From a virus, in IMG/VR virus record IMGVR_UViG_3300012147_000099, positions 1-21,770 of that record: a stretch of DNA of 21,770 nucleotides; one strand, 5' to 3'. The notes beneath the pieces were generated by a model, which was given only the letters and a program-made list of their open reading frames with translations, was not told the origin of the DNA and did not search any database. Position numbers and translations under genes: made by a program. Shown piece after piece: positions 3,432 to 21,301 of the stretch (position 1 is the stretch's first letter; each line of letters begins with the position of its first letter).

Positions 3432-3581
3432 ATGAAATGTTTATTATGTTTAAATAACACAAAAAGTAATTCAATATATATGCTTAAAAAAACACATCAA
3501 CTAGGAGTAGTTTGTTTTAAATGTAAAATTAGTGGGAAATTAAAATTAAATGACTGTAAAAAACAAAGTTACAAATACTAA
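3432..3581 (+). CDS. Tiny Cys-rich protein, 49 aa, zinc-ribbon-like
   Basis: A short ORF from ATG 3432 (with GAGGGA about 8 bases upstream) to TAA at 3579-3581. CLLC at residues 3-6 and CFKC at 28-31 form two CxxC pairs about 21 residues apart, with a Lys-rich tail holding one more Cys. This is the spacing of a minimal zinc ribbon, and such mini-proteins are frequent in this type of phage. It lies 59 bases after the methylase gene. The CxxC pairs and start context support it, but the small size leaves doubt. Confidence 0.6.
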   Translation: MKCLLCLNNTKSNSIYMLKKTHQLGVVCFKCKISGKLKLNDCKKQSYKY

Positions 3582-3626
3582 ATAGTTAATTCGCAAATGC
3601 AAGATAATAAGAAGGAGGATAAACGA

Positions 3627-3797
3627 ATGAGTGGTATGCGTAGTAGAAAACAAATCGACCAAGAGTACGGTATATGAGAAACCGACAAGAAATGCCCGAA
3701 ATGTGGTGCAGACATAAAGCATTTTGATGATGGTGACCAAGGTGGTGTACCTTTTGATTACTGTGAGAACGATGATTGTAATTATGAAGGTAGATAG
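3627..3797 (+). pseudogene. Zinc-ribbon ORF interrupted by in-frame TGA
   Basis: A near-perfect ribosome site, AAGGAGGAT at 3612-3620, precedes ATG 3627, but the frame meets TGA at 3675-3677 after 16 codons. It then continues open for 39 codons to TAG at 3795-3797. The downstream part encodes KKCPKCGADIKHFDDGD and then YCENDDCNYEGR, a clear zinc ribbon with two Cys pairs. There is no suitable restart between the TGA and the first Cys. TGG elsewhere encodes Trp in this window and TGA ends other genes (859, 5122), so the simplest reading is one TGG-to-TGA change in a 56-residue protein; readthrough is possible. Sequencing error cannot be excluded. Confidence 0.65.
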
Positions 3798-3870
3798 AAG
3801 TGTAGAAAATTATGAATGAAAACGATATTTTATAGCAAAATTTAAAATAGTAAAAACTTTCTCAAAACAC

Positions 3871-3899
3871 TTGACAGAAGTGTTGAGGTGTGGTATAAT
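3871..3899 (+). promoter_or_regulatory. Perfect sigma-A promoter of the candidate RNA
   Basis: TTGACA at 3871-3876, exactly 17 bases, then TATAAT at 3894-3899 with TGG directly before it (extended -10). The segment GTGTGGTATAATA is repeated at the promoter near 6727, as is the downstream ACTATAAG. The predicted start near 3906-3908 opens the gene-free structured region, so this promoter appears dedicated to it. Confidence 0.92.
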
Positions 3900-3905
3900 A
3901 GTACT

Positions 3906-4580
3906 ATAAGGTAGATTGGTTACATGTTCCCAATAATAAAAAACATGGGGCGTTAAGCAAGCTTAAGCGAACAATTACTTAAGGGCTTATACAAGTATTA
4001 CAGAGTAAAGTTCGGTGGGGCTGTAATACATGTCGAGGTAGAGACGTGAAACCTACCTCCAATAATGGTCTCATTTGTGCCGATAAGTCAAATGCAGTGT
4101 ACATACCAATACATAGAAGGTGTTTACTCATCGCCATAAATAAATGAGAATTGGTATGGTGGAGCTAATATAGTAGGTAGGCTCAAATCAGTAGTGGTTG
4201 GTCAAGGCTGATAATTAATATGAGTACATTCTTATGGAGATTGTAAGATGTCAGTTCGGAAAAAATCTCATTAATGAGACAAACGTATACTGCTGACTGA
4301 AAAACTTATAGAGGTTCGAGACCTTGGTACTCACTTATACACTGCCGATATTGTAGAAGTACAATGCTAAAATTATAGCTCAAACGTGGAAGCGTAATCC
4401 GTGCGAGGCAGTGTGCATTGTGGAACAAGTAAGAATAAAGGTTTGTAGTACTACAAGTTTAAATTGAAAGCAAACGAGTAACCTTGAAAGACACAGGTTT
4501 TACTTCTATTCTATGGTGATATGGATTAAACGCTATAAGCCCTCAAAAGTAAAATGCTCGCTCTTAGGCTTTCAGTCCAC
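3906..4580 (+). ncRNA. Candidate large structured RNA, about 670 nt (ROOL/GOLLD-like size)
   Basis: Between the promoter at 3871-3899 and the ribosome site at 4594-4599 there is no credible gene but many complementary segments. They are 3923-3928/3942-3947; 3995-4003/4021-4029 (9 bp, extended by 3991-3993/4031-4033); 4035-4041/4053-4059 (7 bp); 4072-4077/4089-4094; 4102-4110/4150-4158 (9 bp) enclosing 4127-4131/4144-4148; 4221-4227/4327-4333 (7 bp) enclosing 4250-4254/4293-4297 and 4266-4270/4275-4279; 4339-4346/4407-4414 (8 bp) enclosing 4350-4355/4360-4365; and 4443-4448/4451-4456. A possible closing pairing joins 3918-3923 to 4478-4483. The base composition looks less A-rich than in the neighbouring genes. 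It lacks group I core motifs and any visible group II domain V. ROOL and GOLLD are phage-associated RNAs of several hundred nt. The 3' end is unknown; no intrinsic terminator was seen, so it may continue into the gene at 4606. Confidence 0.72.
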
Positions 4581-4605
4581 AATAATATATATAAGGAGGT
4601 TTTAT

Positions 4606-4812
4606 ATGAAGACGAATGATATTGTTCAAGTTAATGTAAAAGGTATATGGAAGACGGTTGATTTTTCAGAGTTGGAAAAAGGAAAAATGGTTAGATTTGT
4701 TAGAGACGGAAGAAAAGTGGTCGACGAAAGAGGTAGGGGAGTTTATACTACTAGTTCAAAACCTTATGTAAACAGTAGAGGTGAGGAAGTAGTGGAAGTA
4801 TATAGTGGTTAA
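4606..4812 (+). CDS. Small basic hypothetical protein, 68 aa
   Basis: ATG 4606 stands behind an excellent AAGGAGG at 4593-4599; the ATG at 4513 in the same frame would place 31 residues inside the structured RNA region and has no ribosome site. The product begins with DIVQVNVKGIWKTVDFSEL and is rich in Arg, Lys and Val. It probably forms a compact beta-rich fold. It is the first gene downstream of the candidate RNA and may be translated from a readthrough transcript. No family was recognised. Confidence 0.78.
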   Translation: MKTNDIVQVNVKGIWKTVDFSELEKGKMVRFVRDGRKVVDERGRGVYTTSSKPYVNSRGEEVVEVYSG

Positions 4813-8932: not shown

Positions 8933-9531
8933 AAAGGGTAAATACCATAAAGTCTTTGTAGATTGAGGTAGCGTGGAAAAAACAATTGTATTAGTAAAAA
9001 ATGCTAGCAATAAATATGAAACTACAAAGAAGCAAGAAAAATTGATAGTTAGGTGGTACTTGGAAGAAAAGCTTTCTCCTCCACAAATAGCCAAAAGAAC
9101 AAATGTTGGGGTTTATGTTATAAGAAGAATAATACTACAACAAGGTTTGAGCTTAAGTGTTAATATGAGAAAGAGTAGAAAGTTCCACTTTAATGAAAGC
9201 TATTTTGATAAAATAAATATGGAAAATACCAATGACCATTCATGTAGTAATGCGTGAAATGAAGATGGTGAACTTAGAAATCTAAGGTGTGTGTCAATAT
9301 GACATGCTAACGGTTCAGAGCTAGAGATAGTTTATGAGTAAGGAAGGCTAAATCCTAAGTAAGGACAAGCTAATACCGTGCCAAGCCTCAATGGAGGAAG
9401 GTGTAACGACTAAGGAGTAGTGTCCTGTAGGCTATGGGTGAAAATCCCATACCGAAGTGCCATCTATCCTTAATAAGGATAAAGAGATAGTCTAGTCCCC
9501 TAATAAATATCGGGAAACCGAGGGTATTTCG
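8933..9531 (+). mobile_element. Group I intron 1 (in Sak4-like gene)
   Basis: Core motifs are visible in order: a P2-like hairpin (CTTAGA/TCTAAG, about 9276-9291), GCTAACGG opening the P3-P4 region (about 9306), Q element AATACCGTGCCAAGCC (9372-9387), R element GGTGTAACGACTA (9400-9412), a P8 hairpin with TATCCTTAATAAGGATA, and S element AGATAGTCTA (9484-9493) that pairs with R as P7. Then comes a P9 region with the GAAA-capped TCGG/CCGA hairpin. The last 31 core bases (9496-9526) are identical to 19835-19865 of intron 2. A possible guide GTAGTA at 9244-9249 can pair with exon bases 8926-8931. The ends are approximate (8932/8933 to 9524/9531). Confidence 0.85.
8973..9257 (+). CDS. Truncated homing-endonuclease remnant in intron 1, 94 aa
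   Basis: GTG 8973 follows a GAGG, inside intron 1. The N-terminal half carries a helix-turn-helix (KQEKLIVRWYLEEKLSPPQI, then AKRTNVGVYVIRRIILQQG), as in the DNA-binding regions of intron endonucleases. The segment KFHFNESYFDKINMENTN is what, in LAGLIDADG enzymes I know, leads into the first catalytic motif (roughly YFxxIDTEEKAYWLGFLYADG). Here it breaks off into NDHSCSNA and stops, so the whole catalytic part is missing. It is therefore probably an inactive relic of a deleted endonuclease gene. The surviving protein might still bind DNA or RNA. The frame is clear; assignment to LAGLIDADG is from motif memory. Confidence 0.65.
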   Translation: MEKTIVLVKNASNKYETTKKQEKLIVRWYLEEKLSPPQIAKRTNVGVYVIRRIILQQGLSLSVNMRKSRKFHFNESYFDKINMENTNDHSCSNA

Positions 9532-10257
9532 GAAGCATCAGCACAGTTGTGTCAAGATTATATCTGTCAAAGAGAAGGTGTTTCTACAATTGGTGAGATT
9601 CCTCATGGTGGTGGATATAAAATGTATGAAGTGGAGTTTTGGAGAGAGATTAATAAGTTAACTTCTGCTGGTTTTACAGTTTATTTTATATCTCATGAGG
9701 GACAAAGAACGTTTTTGAATGACAAAGGCGAAGAGTATACAAAGATTTATCCTAAAGGGGACAAACGCTCAATTGACCCAATTTGTGACCTCTGTGATAT
9801 TATTCTATACTTAAAACCAAATGGACTTGACGAAACAGGTAAGGAAATACCTAGTTCAGCTTTCATAGTAAACACCCCAGAATATTTAGCTCGTTCTAGA
9901 TTTGATTATATGGTTAACTATTTGAAAGAGTTTAGTATAGAAAACTTAGAGCAAGCAATCTCAGATGCAATAGATGAAGAAGAAAAAATTAGTGGTGTCG
10001 GTTCTGTTGTTTCTTTCACTGAAAATCAAGAGTTAACCAAAGTTAAAGAGAAAACATTTGACGAAATCATGCAAGAGATTGAAAAGTACGCAATGTTTTT
10101 AAATGAAAAAGGTAAAATAGATGACTATATAACGATTGTTGAGGAGCATTTAGGAAAAGGCAATGGTGCTTCAACCGCAACTAAGAATCAAAAACAACAA
10201 TTAGACATGGTTCTTTATGACTTAGAAGACGCATTTAAAGAAGAACTAGAAGCCTAA
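9532..10257 (+). CDS. Sak4/RecA-like recombination ATPase, exon 2
   Basis: The frame is open upstream of the TTG at 9547 into the intron end, and EASAQLCQDYICQREGV continues naturally from the exon 1 end IIFDTV. Then come GEIPHGGGYKMYEVEFWREI, the strand-helix VYFISHEGQR typical of these ATPases (sensor-like His/Glu), DPICDLCDIILYLKPNG and IVNTPEYLARSRF. The acidic, helical C-terminal 100 residues (FDEIMQEIEKYAMFLNEK and beyond) are probably a partner-binding or regulatory region. There is no plausible ribosome site at 9547, which supports splicing rather than a separate gene. A terminator-like hairpin follows at 10264. Confidence 0.85.
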   Translation, partial: EASAQLCQDYICQREGVSTIGEIPHGGGYKMYEVEFWREINKLTSAGFTVYFISHEGQRTFLNDKGEEYTKIYPKGDKRSIDPICDLCDIILYLKPNGLDETGKEIPSSAFIVNTPEYLARSRFDYMVNYLKEFSIENLEQAISDAIDEEEKISGVGSVVSFTENQELTKVKEKTFDEIMQEIEKYAMFLNEKGKIDDYITIVEEHLGKGNGASTATKNQKQQLDMVLYDLEDAFKEELEA

Positions 10258-10821: not shown

Positions 10822-13506
10822 ATGTTTGATAAAGCTACGATATTACAGGTTTTTGGTTGTTTGTTATTAGAACCAAACCTACTACTAGAAGAGGAATATG
10901 GAGACTTAAGAGTAGAAGACTTTCCAGAAAAGTTTCATCAAATTGTTTTTGGAGCTATTCATAACCTAATAAAAAGCAATGTTAAAAACTTATCTCCTAT
11001 GGAAGTGGATAGTTTTCTATCTTCTTATAATAAAAATTATACTATTTTTACAGATAATAATGGAATTGAATATATAGATAAATGTATGCAGTTGGCAAAA
11101 GTGGAAAACTTTCAGTATAACTACAAAAGACTTAAGAAGTTTAGCCTATTAAAATTTTATAGAGACCAAGGTTTTGATACAAAGGTCATATATAATGACC
11201 AACTCTTAGACACTAAACAGCAAGAGGAGCAACAAGTTAAGTTCGACACAAGAGAGATAGACGAAATTATTGATTATTTTGACACCATTGTTATTCAGTC
11301 TAGAGATGAGTATGCAAAAAACTTAGGTCAAGAGGGACAACAAGCTGGTAAGAAGCTGAAAGAACTAAAAGAAACACTCAAACTTACTCCAGAAATGGGA
11401 GCACCTTTAGACAGTGGTATATTAACAACTATAACTAGAGGGGCTAGGAAGAAGAAGTTTTATATTAGGTCGGCTGAAAGTGGTTTAGGAAAAGCTATTC
11501 CAAACTACTTTAAAATTCCAACTCCTAGTGGTTGGAAAACAATAGGGGATATAAAGGTTGGAGACGAGCTTTTTGCTAGAGATGGTAAGACAACAAAAGT
11601 GTTACAAATACATCCACAGCCTACTAAAAAAGAAGTGTATGAGGTTCACTTTAAAGATGGTAGAGTAGTCGAATCATGTGAAGACCATTTATGGGAATAC
11701 TCTTACCAAAAAGATAGACCTAGAGTTGTTGAGACAACGAAGCAGTTACTAGATAGAGCTGAGGGTTTGGGTGGATTCAAAAGTGGTAGAGGTTTCAGAT
11801 ATAAAATTCCCATGAACCAAGCTGTAGAGTATCCAACAAAAGAGTTTAGTTTACATCCCTACACAATGGGAACAATGCTTGGAGATGCTAGTTTTAGGAC
11901 TAGTGCTAAAAATAAGTCTTTAGAGTACTCTTCCTATGACTTGGAAATCGTTTCTAAGATAGCTAATCTTGAAAATTGGGGTTTTAGTAAATCTAATGCG
12001 AATAACAACACTTGGCATTTTGAGCATAAAAACGTGGCTAAGGTAGGAAGATATCACAATATGGTTTGGGTTGAAGAGGCTTTGGCTGATTATCCAAATC
12101 TATGGAACGTGAAAAGTGGAGACAAGTTCATTCCACAACACTATTTGTTAGGGGATGTAGAGCAGAGAAGATTTCTATTACAAGGTCTACTAGACACAGA
12201 TGGGAGTATTTCTAAAAAAGGCGGTAGAGTGGGTTTTTCGACAACAAGTGAGAAGATGAAAGATGGTATTATCGAACTTTGTAGAAGCCTTGGATACGTT
12301 GCAAATTTTTCTAAAGACACAAGAGAAGATAAATATACAAATGGGGTTTGCTACGAAATTAGAATATTAACGCCCAAGAGCGAGAAAGTTAATATGTTCT
12401 CATATACACCTAAAAAACAAAAAGCAATAGACTATGTAAGTGTAGAAAAAAGGTCAGAAGCAAACGATTGGTTGGCTATATCTGACATAGTGAGAACAAA
12501 AAAACTTGTTGACATGACATGCTTTACAGTTGATAATGAAGAAGCTTTGTTTCAAGTGGGTGATTTCATTGTTACGCACAATACGAGATTGGCAATTGGT
12601 GATGCTTGTAAAATAGCAATTAGAAATGTATACGATACAGAGCTTGGAGAGTGGATAGATAGGAAGTATAGTGAACCTACTCTATTTATAACAACAGAGT
12701 TAGAAATAAATGAAATACAAACTCCCATGGTTGCCTATGTGAGTGGTGTAGATGAGGACAAACTTCTCTCCTTTACATATAATGAAGAAGAAGAAAAGAG
12801 AATTGATAGAGCAATAGAAATAATAGCAGAGTCACCTATTTGGATTGAGCATATTCCTAGTTTCAATATGACAGATATAGAGAGAGCTATAAAAAAATAC
12901 AAAGTTAATCACGATGTGTCGTATGTGTTTTTTGACTATATTTTTACTTCTCCTAAGATGTTAATGGAAATAGCTAGTCAAACAAGGGGTATGAAACTTA
13001 GAGAAGACAATGTTTTGTATTTATTTGCTGATAGAATGAAGTACCTATGTAATACATTAGATGTGTTTATATATAGTGCTACACAAGTAAATGGGGAAAT
13101 AAAACATGTAAAAACAGCAGATGAGGCAGTACTTAGAGGAGCAAAGTCAATTGCCGATAAGATTGACATAGGATTGATAGCAATGCAAGTTACTAAAGCT
13201 GACTTGGAAAGCCTAGCTAACATACTTCCAGCTTTTTCAGTTCTTCCCAATCTTGTTTACAATATATACAAAGTAAGAAAAGGTAGATTTGTTAGGGTTA
13301 AGCTTTGGTGTTATATAGACTTAGGAACTTGTCGAACAAAAGACTTGTTTTTAACAAACAATGACTATGAGGTTATAGATATAGAAGCTACCACAGTTGA
13401 ACAAATACTAGATAGTAATATGTACACAAAAGAAGAAATGGAAGCATTAGAAGCTCCTATAGAAGCAATGGAAGAAGAAAAAGAAGAGGGGGGCTTTAAG
13501 TGGTAG
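10822..13506 (+). CDS. dnaB: DnaB-type replicative helicase precursor with intein
   Basis: AGGAGAGG precedes ATG 10822. The 894-residue precursor contains an N-terminal helical domain, a linker, and a RecA-like motor interrupted by a 363-residue intein (residues 225-587). Spliced, the helicase would be 531 residues: Walker A SGLGK|T at the insertion site, H1a FITTELE, Walker B YVFFDYIF, and H3 SATQVNG with its conserved Gln. The DnaB family unwinds parental DNA ahead of the replisome as a hexamer. The extein tail is acidic, ending in KEEGGFKW. The primase gene overlaps its stop by 7 bases, matching the usual helicase-primase partnership. Without splicing the P-loop is broken, so activity depends on intein removal. 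Confidence 0.9.
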   Translation: MFDKATILQVFGCLLLEPNLLLEEEYGDLRVEDFPEKFHQIVFGAIHNLIKSNVKNLSPMEVDSFLSSYNKNYTIFTDNNGIEYIDKCMQLAKVENFQYNYKRLKKFSLLKFYRDQGFDTKVIYNDQLLDTKQQEEQQVKFDTREIDEIIDYFDTIVIQSRDEYAKNLGQEGQQAGKKLKELKETLKLTPEMGAPLDSGILTTITRGARKKKFYIRSAESGLGKAIPNYFKIPTPSGWKTIGDIKVGDELFARDGKTTKVLQIHPQPTKKEVYEVHFKDGRVVESCEDHLWEYSYQKDRPRVVETTKQLLDRAEGLGGFKSGRGFRYKIPMNQAVEYPTKEFSLHPYTMGTMLGDASFRTSAKNKSLEYSSYDLEIVSKIANLENWGFSKSNANNNTWHFEHKNVAKVGRYHNMVWVEEALADYPNLWNVKSGDKFIPQHYLLGDVEQRRFLLQGLLDTDGSISKKGGRVGFSTTSEKMKDGIIELCRSLGYVANFSKDTREDKYTNGVCYEIRILTPKSEKVNMFSYTPKKQKAIDYVSVEKRSEANDWLAISDIVRTKKLVDMTCFTVDNEEALFQVGDFIVTHNTRLAIGDACKIAIRNVYDTELGEWIDRKYSEPTLFITTELEINEIQTPMVAYVSGVDEDKLLSFTYNEEEEKRIDRAIEIIAESPIWIEHIPSFNMTDIERAIKKYKVNHDVSYVFFDYIFTSPKMLMEIASQTRGMKLREDNVLYLFADRMKYLCNTLDVFIYSATQVNGEIKHVKTADEAVLRGAKSIADKIDIGLIAMQVTKADLESLANILPAFSVLPNLVYNIYKVRKGRFVRVKLWCYIDLGTCRTKDLFLTNNDYEVIDIEATTVEQILDSNMYTKEEMEALEAPIEAMEEEKEEGGFKW
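11494..12582 (+). mobile_element. Class 3-like intein with LAGLIDADG endonuclease in helicase P-loop
   Basis: Helicase residues 225-587. The intein begins with Ala (no Cys/Ser nucleophile at position 1) and ends in VTHN followed by Thr+1. It shows the features described for class 3 inteins: Trp291 in CEDHLW (block B), Cys567 in DMTCFTV (block F) and Thr585 in VTHN (block G), the so-called WCT set, in which the block F Cys starts splicing. Two endonuclease motifs, MGTMLGDAS (Asp355) and LLQGLLDTDGS (Asp460), look intact, so homing may be active. The insertion lies between Lys and Thr of Walker A. Confidence 0.88.
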
Positions 13507-18854: not shown

Positions 18855-19871
18855 AAAAACATTATGCCCTATTAAAATTTTGTGAACGCTATTGCCTAGC
18901 GGTGTCTACTTAACTTTTGGAGTCATGGGAAATAATGACTAATGAGTAGGCTAACAGGGGAAGTCTAAGTTGGAAACAATATGATAATCCTGTGCCAAGC
19001 CTTGAAAGAGGAAGGTGCAACGACTATCCCGTAAGGGAGTAGGGTGGGAGATAGGCTACCATTCGAAGTGCTAAGTGTGTGGAAGTAGAGAGAGTAGTGA
19101 AATGAATAAAAGAGTTTTTTTAAACAACAGTGAAACAAAGTATTCGATTTATAGTAACGGTGACTGTATAAACACAGAAACAAACAGACTGTTAAAAAGA
19201 AAGTTTAATCGTACAAACGGCTATGAGTCTTATACTCTAAGTCATAAAAACAAACAATACACAAGATATGTTCACAGATTAATAGGAGAGTATTTTTTAA
19301 GGTTGGATATAGACACCAAGCTTCAAATAAATCATATTGATGGCAACAAAGTAAACAACATGCTTGAAAACTTGGAAGTTGTTGATGCAAGCGGTAATAT
19401 GCAACACGCCGTGAGAACAAAACTACTAAAAACAAAAAACGTTTATCAATACAACATTGATGGAACATTTGTTGAAAAATATGGTAGTGCACAACAAGCT
19501 AAGAGTAAAACCAATGTCTCAATAAAAAGTATATCTATTTGTGCTATTGAGGGTGGAATTGGTGGTGGGTATGTTTGGTCTTACTCAAGACTAGAACCAA
19601 ACGATGGGGTTTTTAAAAAGAGTAGGATGATGAAAAATGTTAAGGTTGGTCAATATGATATGCAAGGTAGTCTAATCGAAACTTACGAAAACTTGAAAAG
19701 TGCTTACAAAGCAATAGACAGAAAAGATAACGGTGCAATAACTAGAGTTTGCAAAGGAGAGAGAAAATCTCACTTAAATTACAAATGGAAATTTATATTA
19801 TAGACAAATCTTCCACACACAAGATATAGTCTAATCCCCTAATAAATATCGGGAAACCGAGGGTAGAAATG
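18855..19871 (+). mobile_element. Group I intron 2 (in polymerase gene) with HNH gene
   Basis: The 5' exon end TAGGGT (18849-18854) pairs with guide GCCCTA at 18866-18871, including the required U.G pair at the splice site. TTAT at 18862-18865 can pair with exon 2 ATAG (19872-19875) as P10. Core elements are a P2-like hairpin CGCTA/TAGCG, Q AATCCTGTGCCAAGCC (18986-19001), R GGTGCAACGACTA (19014-19026), S AAGATATAGTCTA (19821-19833) pairing with R as P7, P8 (19075-19085/19810-19820, 11 bp) whose loop holds the HNH gene, and P9 with TCGG-GAAA-CCGA. The intron ends at G19871. Length 1017 nt. Confidence 0.93.
19102..19803 (+). CDS. HNH homing endonuclease with NUMOD-type repeats (intron-encoded)
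   Basis: ATG 19102 lies in the P8 loop of intron 2. The 233-residue product has an N-terminal NUMOD4-like/HNH part: YVHRLIGEYF (57-66), INHIDGNKVNNMLENLEVV (76-94) and a GNMQHA segment, the signature of HNH enzymes of the I-HmuI type. Two NUMOD1-like DNA-binding modules follow (about 112-155 with VYQYNIDGTFVEKYGSAQQA, and 185-233 with VGQYDMQGSLIETY...AITRVCKG). Such enzymes nick or cut intronless alleles and spread the intron; the target here would be the polymerase exon junction. The gene looks intact, in contrast to the relic in intron 1. The ribosome site is weak (AGAGAG), usual for intron ORFs. Confidence 0.88.
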   Translation: MNKRVFLNNSETKYSIYSNGDCINTETNRLLKRKFNRTNGYESYTLSHKNKQYTRYVHRLIGEYFLRLDIDTKLQINHIDGNKVNNMLENLEVVDASGNMQHAVRTKLLKTKNVYQYNIDGTFVEKYGSAQQAKSKTNVSIKSISICAIEGGIGGGYVWSYSRLEPNDGVFKKSRMMKNVKVGQYDMQGSLIETYENLKSAYKAIDRKDNGAITRVCKGERKSHLNYKWKFIL

Positions 19872-21301
19872 ATAGTTTCTCTAGGAATCACACTGTGCCT
19901 TACTCTGCAATAGCATTACAAGAGATGAACTTATATCACAGATTTAACAAGTTATATTGGAACACTTCTGTTTTAACTGTTAACGCATCGGCAATAGAAG
20001 ATGAGTCAATCAATAATAAAAAGAAGGTTACTAATTATGGCAAGATAGCAATCGCAATAGGTGATATTCAAGGCAATGGTGTTAGTATTTCATTACCACA
20101 CATCAACAAAGCTAAGTTTAGTTTTTACCCAGATATTGAAAACGATGCAATAGTCTTTGGTTTGAAAGGTATAAATGGGATAGGAGATGATGTTGCTAAC
20201 CTAATAATAGAGAATAGACCATATTTATCTCTTGCCGACTTTATAGAAAAGACAAATTTACCAAAACTTGCTATGATAAACCTAATAAAAGCTGGTGCTT
20301 TTGACGAAATTGAGAAAATAAATGGAAATAGGGTTGACACTATGAAGAGTTTCTTGTATAATATACATATACTAGGAAACAACAGAGAGAAGCCTTTGGA
20401 CTTTGGCAACTTAGCAAAGCTAGTAGAGATGGAATTAATTCCAAAAGAATTATTAGGTCAAGTTAGGGAATACATGTTCCTAAAACTCATAAACACAAAA
20501 GAGTATTTTGTTGGTAAAAAGGGAAATAGAAAGTGGAATGTCTTGCCTAACAGAGATGATGTACTAGAGTATTTTTCTGAAATATTTGTTGGTGAGTTAA
20601 AAGAGGGAGAGGATTTTGAATATACAGATGACTGCACAGTAGAATATAGGACAAGTTCAATTGAGAAAGTAGTTTCCAAACATATCGAAAAACTATCTGA
20701 TTGGTTAGGTTTAGAAAGTACGTTGGAACTGTATAGGGATAATATTGTAAGTTTGGGAATGAGTGGGGATTGGGACAAGTATTGTAATGGAACAATATCT
20801 AAATGGGAAATGGATAGTTTGAGTTTTTACTACCATGAGCATGAAATGTCTAAGTTAAATAAAGATGTTTATGACTTGTCAAACTTCTTTGAGTTGCCAT
20901 CTATGGAAGCTTTCGAAGTGGTAAGGACAAAAAACAAAGAGTTTAAAAAGTATCAATTAACTAGAATAGGTGGAACTGTGCTAGATAAAAACAAGATGAA
21001 GCATAGTGTTACATTACTAACAGAGTTTGGAGTAGTTAAGGTTAAGTTCTACCAAGGGGCTTTTAGCAATTACGACAAACAAATGTCAATTTACAATGAA
21101 GATAGTGGCAAGAAGAAAATTATGGAGAAATCTTGGTTCACAAGAGGTGCTAAAATAATGGTTGTTGGGTATAGAAGAGACGACCAATTTATCCCTAGAA
21201 ATTATGCCAATAGTGTGTATCAGCACAGTGTGGCAAAAATAGAGGAGATATACGAAAATGGAGAAGCCTCAATAACAACAGAAAGGTTTGAGTATGAATA
21301 A
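19872..21301 (+). CDS. dnaE: C-family (DnaE-like) DNA polymerase III alpha, exon 2
   Basis: Bases A19872 and T19873 complete a Tyr codon with T18854, then SFSRNHTVPYSAIALQEMNL continues the finger domain. LKGINGIGDDVANLI and the ENRPYLSLADFIE segment form the helix-hairpin-helix region and PKLAMINLIKAGAFDEI its end, as in DnaE. A poorly conserved helical stretch follows, then an OB-type domain (RIGGTVLDKNKMKHSVTLLT and FGVVKVKFYQGAF). The frame is open upstream of the GTG at 19895, and no ribosome site is seen there, so it is not a separate gene. The C-terminus overlaps the next gene by 8 bases. No clear beta-clamp motif was identified. Confidence 0.9.
20334..20362 (+). promoter_or_regulatory. 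Perfect promoter-like sequence inside polymerase exon 2
   Basis: TTGACA at 20334-20339, 17 bases, TATAAT at 20357-20362, both full consensus, with a TTG before the -10. It lies within coding sequence, about 930 bases before the next gene start. It may be an internal promoter for the helicase gene or a chance match in AT-rich DNA. Confidence 0.4.

Follow-up and report, generated by a model that had tools for sequence, protein, structure and literature searches.

The window, by which we mean the whole 21,770-nt stretch of DNA analysed, is a virus record of 21.8 kb whose replication module is SPbeta-like; the best matches of its RecJ, with 32-34% identity, are in Geobacillus virus E3 and in SPbeta phages. 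The window starts with a run of 6-nt Gly-rich repeats (GGTTCT/GGTTAT/GGTGAT; 3-138). A small Zn-ribbon-like ORF (3627-3797) possesses an in-frame TGA at codon 17, and its exact sequence is absent from the sister contig described below. The DnaB-like helicase gene (10822-13506) contains an intein carrying LAGLIDADG/Hom_end domains. A group I intron with a 94-aa ORF of unknown family (8940-9546; E 5.6e-6 when scanned as a slice) interrupts a Sak4-like (AAA_24) recombinase gene, and a second (18855-19886), located in a PolC-type DNA polymerase gene, holds an HNH_3/NUMOD1 endonuclease ORF (19102-19803) and has two blocks, of 45 nt (96%) and 42 nt (83%), in common with the first. The preliminary description held nearly all DNA outside the region discussed here to be coding, which is broadly correct, but for these two introns.

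The gene-free stretch and its promoter

The features of the region are collected in Table 1. The sigma-A promoter that had been proposed is indeed there, TTGACA and TATAAT being separated by 17 bp with TG ahead of the -10 hexamer. The repeat of its -10 region and first transcribed bases (86% identity) lies upstream of a Gam-like gene. No ORF of 60 aa or more is found inside 3906-4592, in agreement with the claim that the stretch is free of genes; one longer frame alone (4513-4812) reaches into it, by extending in the upstream direction the 68-aa ORF beginning at 4606, to which no Pfam or PHROG family could be assigned. We found no terminator between the RNA and this ORF, and the full-length RNA may therefore be the leader of the ORF 4606 operon, processed or not, rather than a free RNA of 670 nt.

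Table 1. Features of the putative RNA and its surroundings (positions in the window)
Feature	Position	Strand	Basis or remarks
Sigma-A promoter, extended -10 (TG)	3871-3899	+	12/12 consensus positions; -10 and initial transcribed part repeated at 6744-6772
Gene-free putative RNA, about 690 nt	3906-4592	+	Predicted transcript ends; no ORF; MFE z -2.6; no Rfam match
5′ domain without known relatives	3906-4428	+	blastn/nhmmer: same virus population only
5′ arm, 33 nt, complementary to 4534-4571	3959-3991	+	Duplex -33.0 kcal/mol
Family member, permutation B (open at P2)	4429-4575	+	Held-out model R1: E 7.6e-10, 54.3 bits
Pseudoknot 5′ strand AAAGGUU (4437-4443) and conserved UGU-AGUA	4437-4450	+	Family alignment
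P2 strand UUGAAAGC	4464-4471	+	8 bp with 4568-4575; covaries across the family
AAAC, GAGU, AACCU (pseudoknot 3′ strand), UGAAAGACAC; most conserved block	4472-4494	+	XaC1 25-nt match; family alignment
P1, hairpin-capped in this permutation: GUUUUACUU (4497-4505) / AAGUAAAAU (4547-4555)	4497-4555	+	Sequence; open outer helix in permutation A
C-GCUC-UUAG, then P2 strand GCUUUCAG (4568-4575)	4559-4575	+	GCUC (4560-4563) pairs with GAGU (4476-4479)
68-aa ORF, first gene after the RNA	4606-4812	+	RBS AAGGAGG (4593-4599)

The region had also been called highly structured. Its minimum free energy is -173.2 kcal/mol, and none of 20 dinucleotide shuffles was equally stable. Taken alone, such energies are weak evidence, because in a window-wide folding scan of 500-nt segments, where the region scored z -1.2 and -2.8, scores went down to -2.5 in coding stretches and to -3.2 in a group I intron; the region ranks high in stability within the window, yet is not unique.

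When the slice 3850-4620 (771 nt) was compared with all 4227 Rfam families by cmscan (E≤10), only chance snoRNA and PreQ1 matches were returned, far below the cut-off. None of the ROOL, GOLLD, HEARO, raiA and OLE models, which had been named as candidates, matches the slice, nor does Intron_gpI or any domain V/group II family, as expected from the earlier view that this is neither a group I nor a group II intron. Short slices are needed for such scans: the Rfam scan of the whole window missed the two clear group I introns, whereas the slice method detects the one at 9232-9514 (Intron_gpI, E 5.6e-6) and is negative on 3850-4620.

A module shared among phages

Blastn of the region against phages and plasmids gave no match at E≤0.01. 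At E≤10 there was a single match of 25/25 nucleotides, window 4470-4494, within a gap in the annotation of the Xanthomonas jumbo phage XaC1; both sequences also carry AAAGGTTTGTAGTA upstream of it. Used as a query, the XaC1 gap revealed this stretch again between genes of Proteus, Erwinia and Klebsiella phages, several of these copies lying beside tRNAs in tRNA arrays, and the copy of Klebsiella phage KP13-26 in turn led to 68 INPHARED phage records. Pattern scans of IMG/VR added lists of 5, 31 and 45 contigs, a few contigs being in more than one list. T4-like, T5-like, Vequintavirinae-type, jumbo, Cellulophaga, Rhizobium and Xanthomonas phages are all represented, and each of the ten records searched whole holds one copy. 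The family is nearly absent from bacterial genomes: among approximately 85,000 prokaryote species genomes, one pattern had two matches and the other none.

Some candidate matches were set aside. Those at query positions 543-580 in SPbeta-like phages lie inside a coding gene there and are probably due to chance, and the other matches of the first degenerate pattern were chance matches in coding DNA. Relatives reached by way of the neighbouring genes belonged to the same virus population only, and the polymerase relatives of the window's virus do not carry the RNA.

Two MAG contigs, from genomes of about 1.0 and 0.8 Mb, possess a tRNA-like chimera with the module, situated between genes that resemble, as read from the sequence, a DHH phosphoesterase and tsaD. 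Since only 2 of the 49 genomes of the hit genome's family carry the module, transfer from a phage is suggested for these copies. The idea of a general cellular RNA of small-genome bacteria was rejected on this count and on that for the phylum (1 of 287).

The family is absent from Rfam 15, as judged from the window slice and the family loci scanned, and no description of it was found among 5.39 million open-access papers, few of them preprints. It looks like a new viral RNA family of wide distribution, with members in dozens of bacterial viruses that are not related to one another, and it is missing from every RNA catalogue and paper searched. Of the two options offered in the preliminary description, a member of a giant phage RNA class or a structured RNA of a new class, it is the latter that is borne out; the former is not supported, since what is conserved is the 3′-terminal module of some 80-100 nt (4429-4575) and not the entire 690 nt. 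The 5′ portion of about 520 nt (523 nt) has no relative, by blastn or nhmmer, in phages, plasmids, 36 related viral records or any of the loci fetched.

Fold, circular permutations and housings

The family is characterized as a pseudoknotted module of about 80-100 nt, with some 25 near-invariant nucleotides and a strongly covarying helix, P2. In the order of permutation B the consensus reads P2b 5′ - GAAY AAGGGUU NNN AGUA - P2b 3′ - P2 3′ - AAAC - GAGU - AACCC - YGAAAGACCC - P1 - GCUC - UUAG - P2 5′. GAGU pairs with GCUC; the pseudoknot, GGGUU/AACCC or AGGUU/AACCU, joins the P2b loop to the strand after GAGU; and P2, which adjoins UUAG and AAAC, brings distant strands together. Helix P2 is the strongest structural evidence, by covariation, and here the helices do covary in homologues as the earlier account had required: the first 37 members (30 distinct P2 sequences) form on average 6.4 bp, versus 2.4 ± 0.2 with shuffled partners, and in an eight-sequence MAFFT alignment that was not fitted to the structure 95.6% of the cells pair, versus 81.3 ± 2.2 when shuffled and at most 51.5% when slid. 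The table of pairings for 61 members was fitted to the pairing, and its pseudoknot counts are biased, two search patterns having prescribed a compensated pair. Independent evidence for the pseudoknot comes from XaC1 and the window, which have A-U where the phages found by BLAST have G-C at the same pair.

We built a covariance model (R1) from eight type B sequences, leaving the window out. Besides the window, R1 matched 23 further loci; it gave no match in 41 control phage loci (0.84 Mb), nor in E. coli rRNA, tmRNA or T4 rnaC/rnaD. Searched against the whole record of the sister contig (39.8 kb), it scored 36.3 bits (E 7e-6). This contig is identical to the window over 3731-4606, and therefore contributes no covariation, and differs by 12 substitutions clustered at 3572-3730.

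Homology of the members, the existence of two circular permutations and the variety of housings are shown by these comparisons. Type A is open at P1 and has ACGCUC-UUAG first (XaC1, KP13-26, RaK2, G2469, IME260 and others); type B is open at P2, with P1 capped by a hairpin and GCUC-UUAG-P2 last, and comprises the window, the Cellulophaga copies and most of the loci numbered L139-L164. The sequence CGCTCTTAGG is common to the window and type A members, in which it lies upstream of the core.

The module is housed in the tRNA arrays of T5-like, T4-like, Vequintavirinae-type and jumbo phages. Most of the type A members examined lie within approximately 230 nt of a tRNA, the distances ranging from about 19 to 230 nt on either side. 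For instance, in the T4-like phage G2469 the module (1188-1287 of the locus) is located between tRNA-Met(cat) and tRNA-Arg(tct), close to the position of the homing endonuclease gene segB in T4. The tRNA array of KP13-26 also contains, next to the module at about 1410-1430 of that locus, TTAAGTGCAGCTAGAAATC, which resembles ToxI, an antitoxin RNA from a type III toxin-antitoxin system, and may be a decoy. In Klebsiella phage KP12 a type A module forms an insertion at P5 of a group I intron (Intron_gpI, E 8.5e-18).

In 23 cases a type B module replaces the anticodon arm of a tRNA-Leu-like body. The acceptor stem is of 7 bp in 19 of these, with compensatory changes such as AGUGAGG/CCUCACU and AGUAGAG/CUCUAUU; the T stem is of 5 bp in 22, the discriminator is A in 18, and the D arm is of the tRNA-Leu type (GGCGGAAUUGGUAGACGC). 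That the insert might be an intron was rejected on inspection, no way being found to rejoin the flanks into an anticodon stem. Locus L157 represents a stand-alone form, with a TTGACA/TATAAT promoter, then an RNA of 95 nt and, after it, a U-run; in both L157 and L183 the U-run comes after the closing stem, with a start codon nearby. In the window the module is the 3′-end of a putative 690-nt leader. The genes downstream of the module differ, and include that for the ssDNA-binding protein in XaC1, ligase-like genes, short unknowns and tRNAs.

In the window copy AGGUU (4439-4443) pairs with AACCU (4480-4484). The end-to-end pairing suggested earlier, 3918-3923 with 4478-4483, is complementary as sequence (GGTTAC/GTAACC), but 4480-4484 is the pseudoknot strand and is put to another use by the family. 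The copy is atypical, having a 12-nt insertion between AGUA and P2, a weak P2b, and AGG for GAA before P1; the loop-E-like AGUA/GAA beside P1 is missing.

A much stronger complementarity than 3918-3923/4478-4483 joins the 33-nt 5′ arm to 4534-4571. Its duplex energy compares with -16.5 ± 3.2 kcal/mol in 500 shuffles (one as low as -33.3) and exceeds that of all 2000 random pairs of other window segments, the best of which reached -27.9. This helix occupies the P1 3′ strand, GCUC, UUAG and part of the P2 5′ strand, and thus excludes the module fold by dissolving P1, P2 and GCUC/GAGU. Free-energy folding favours it, at -173.2 versus -158.9 kcal/mol with the module, so that forcing the module fold costs about 14 kcal/mol before any pseudoknot energy is counted. 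From this we surmise that the window encodes a genuine two-state RNA or, less probably, a decayed module.

Known RNAs and possible roles

Nearest in kind are ROOL and GOLLD, large ORF-less phage RNAs that often lie near tRNA islands; in GOLLD the 3′ region is conserved whereas the 5′ region varies (PMC12286853), a layout like that seen in the window. They are not relatives by any test in this analysis: neither model matches the window slice or the family loci scanned, and the conserved unit of the new family, of some 80-100 nt, also occurs alone, in tRNAs and in an intron. The theta (HDV-like) ribozymes are likewise small pseudoknotted phage RNAs in tRNA contexts, and cleave within 5 nt of a tRNA 3′-end (PMC10879173); the module differs in its variable distance to tRNAs, in lying also inside tRNA bodies and in matching no HDV-type model. 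Like tmRNA, the tRNA-Leu-like housings keep acceptor, D and T arms, lack an anticodon arm and carry a pseudoknotted insert, but they are Leu-type rather than Ala-type, no tag frame was noticed in them, and the module also occurs without any tRNA part. Neither window nor module has an Rfam match to tmRNA, and the local similarity of the module to E. coli ssrA is not beyond chance. T4 rnaC and rnaD are unexplained stable RNAs in a phage tRNA cluster, and the G2469 module is found near the position of T4 segB, rnaD and rnaC, yet the module matches neither by sequence or model. As to group I introns, KP12 carries the module as a P5 extension and the window's phage has two such introns elsewhere, but 3906-4592 itself has no Intron_gpI match.

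Phages of Proteobacteria, Bacteroidetes and probably Firmicutes have a structured RNA in common. An RNA that is so widely shared, nearly absent from the hosts and present in one copy, and that has been preserved while it was permuted and transplanted into tRNAs, an intron and leaders, must have a general use during infection. With 4429-4575 as a member of the new family, we tentatively favour, as a reading a little short of probable, that the module is a trans-acting RNA ligand binding a conserved partner. Phages would keep one copy per genome and express it in differing housings. A rigid, near-invariant face, consisting of GAAUAAGGGUUNNNAGUA docked by the GGGUU:AACCC pseudoknot together with UUAG/AAAC and YGAAAGACCC, would bind one conserved host or phage partner, which might be a component of the ribosome or of translation, an RNase, RNA polymerase or a defence protein. 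Expression, processing and stability would be served by the housing: by ends that RNase P/Z define in tRNA arrays and tRNA bodies, by an own promoter and U-run where the module stands alone, and by the intron P5 in KP12. In the window, the strong sigma-A promoter would give rise to a 690-nt leader with the module at its end, and the 5′ arm, in competing for the GCUC-UUAG-P2 strand, may silence the module or hold back its folding until the remaining RNA has been made. We infer action in trans because the downstream genes differ, which argues against one cis-regulated gene, because some copies of the module have a promoter to themselves, and because it has been transferred whole from one RNA context to another.

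An unpaired face that hardly varies points to recognition by a conserved partner, or else to catalysis; so many strictly conserved unpaired nucleotides in a small pseudoknot would also fit an aptamer for a small molecule, or a ribozyme. A ribozyme of a new class, self-cleaving or catalytic in some other way, whose core would cut the backbone at a fixed site and, beside tRNAs, help to mature their ends, is unlikely on balance. Circular permutation, which hammerhead and twister also show (PMC10085705), and a nested pseudoknot rich in invariant unpaired bases are features typically met in small ribozymes, and the proximity of most type A members to tRNAs recalls the theta ribozymes at tRNA 3′-ends (PMC10879173). 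Those members, however, lie at varying distances on either side, unlike theta; cleavage by the type B copies inside intact tRNA bodies, or by the type A copy on the group I intron P5, would cut the host RNA; and no Rfam ribozyme model (HDV-like/theta, hammerhead, twister or others) matches the window slice or the family loci scanned. Alternatively, the tRNA-like housings could point to a part played in translation itself. A leucylated, anticodon-less tRNA-like RNA, or the module alone, might enter or block ribosomes in the manner of tmRNA, which we consider rather improbable. LeuRS is known not to need the anticodon, and the 23 chimeras, whose acceptor, D and T arms are canonical, the D arm being of the tRNA-Leu type, and whose discriminator is mostly A, would suit such a role, as would the type A members in tRNA arrays; on the other side are the stand-alone, intron and leader versions, which have no tRNA part, a resemblance of the module to tmRNA and rRNA that is not beyond chance, and, as far as was noticed, no tmRNA-tag-like reading frame. 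It is conceivable, if doubtful, that we are dealing with a new catalytic or ribosome-directed class of RNA that is exchanged as a plug-in, works in both permutations and, in large freshwater phages, takes the place of the anticodon arm in a tRNA-Leu that can be charged, yielding a viral anticodon-less aminoacyl-RNA.

There are two further explanations. The module in the window ends 17 nt ahead of the RBS with no terminator between, the long-range helix and the module are mutually exclusive, and L157 and L183 have a closing stem followed by a U-run and a nearby start codon, all of which would befit a riboswitch-like leader that controls the next gene in cis, the 5′ arm and the module of the window being its two switch states before ORF 4606. 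Given that the genes which follow differ and that many copies, being placed between tRNAs or within them, have no gene to control, we regard such a leader as distinctly improbable. The atypical window copy, in which free folding prefers the long-range helix, could also be decaying, a point that weighs against the ligand reading for this copy. Yet it is scarcely credible that the 690 nt are spacer DNA and the resemblance a functionless relic: the 5′ domain has no relatives and the usual P2b and loop-E-like details are lost, but all core elements are present in order, with an 8-bp P2, a compensated pseudoknot and a highly significant match to R1, behind a perfect promoter, and no change separates the sister contig from the window over 3731-4606, versus 12 substitutions in the 160 bp just upstream.

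The consensus, the covariance model and some 60 members turn unexplained gene-free phage DNA into tractable RNAs of about 95 nt, and the tRNA-Leu chimeras raise the question of their charging and of their fate on the ribosome. Mimicry of E. coli 16S, 23S or 5S rRNA or of tmRNA, an idea prompted by CGCUCUUAGG being shared with ssrA, was rejected as not exceeding shuffled sequences. At locus L143 (minus strand), a second promoter-like sequence is found directly downstream of the module, followed by a structured-looking stretch with GGCGAACGAGTAGCC, which is perhaps a diverged or further permuted relative of the family.
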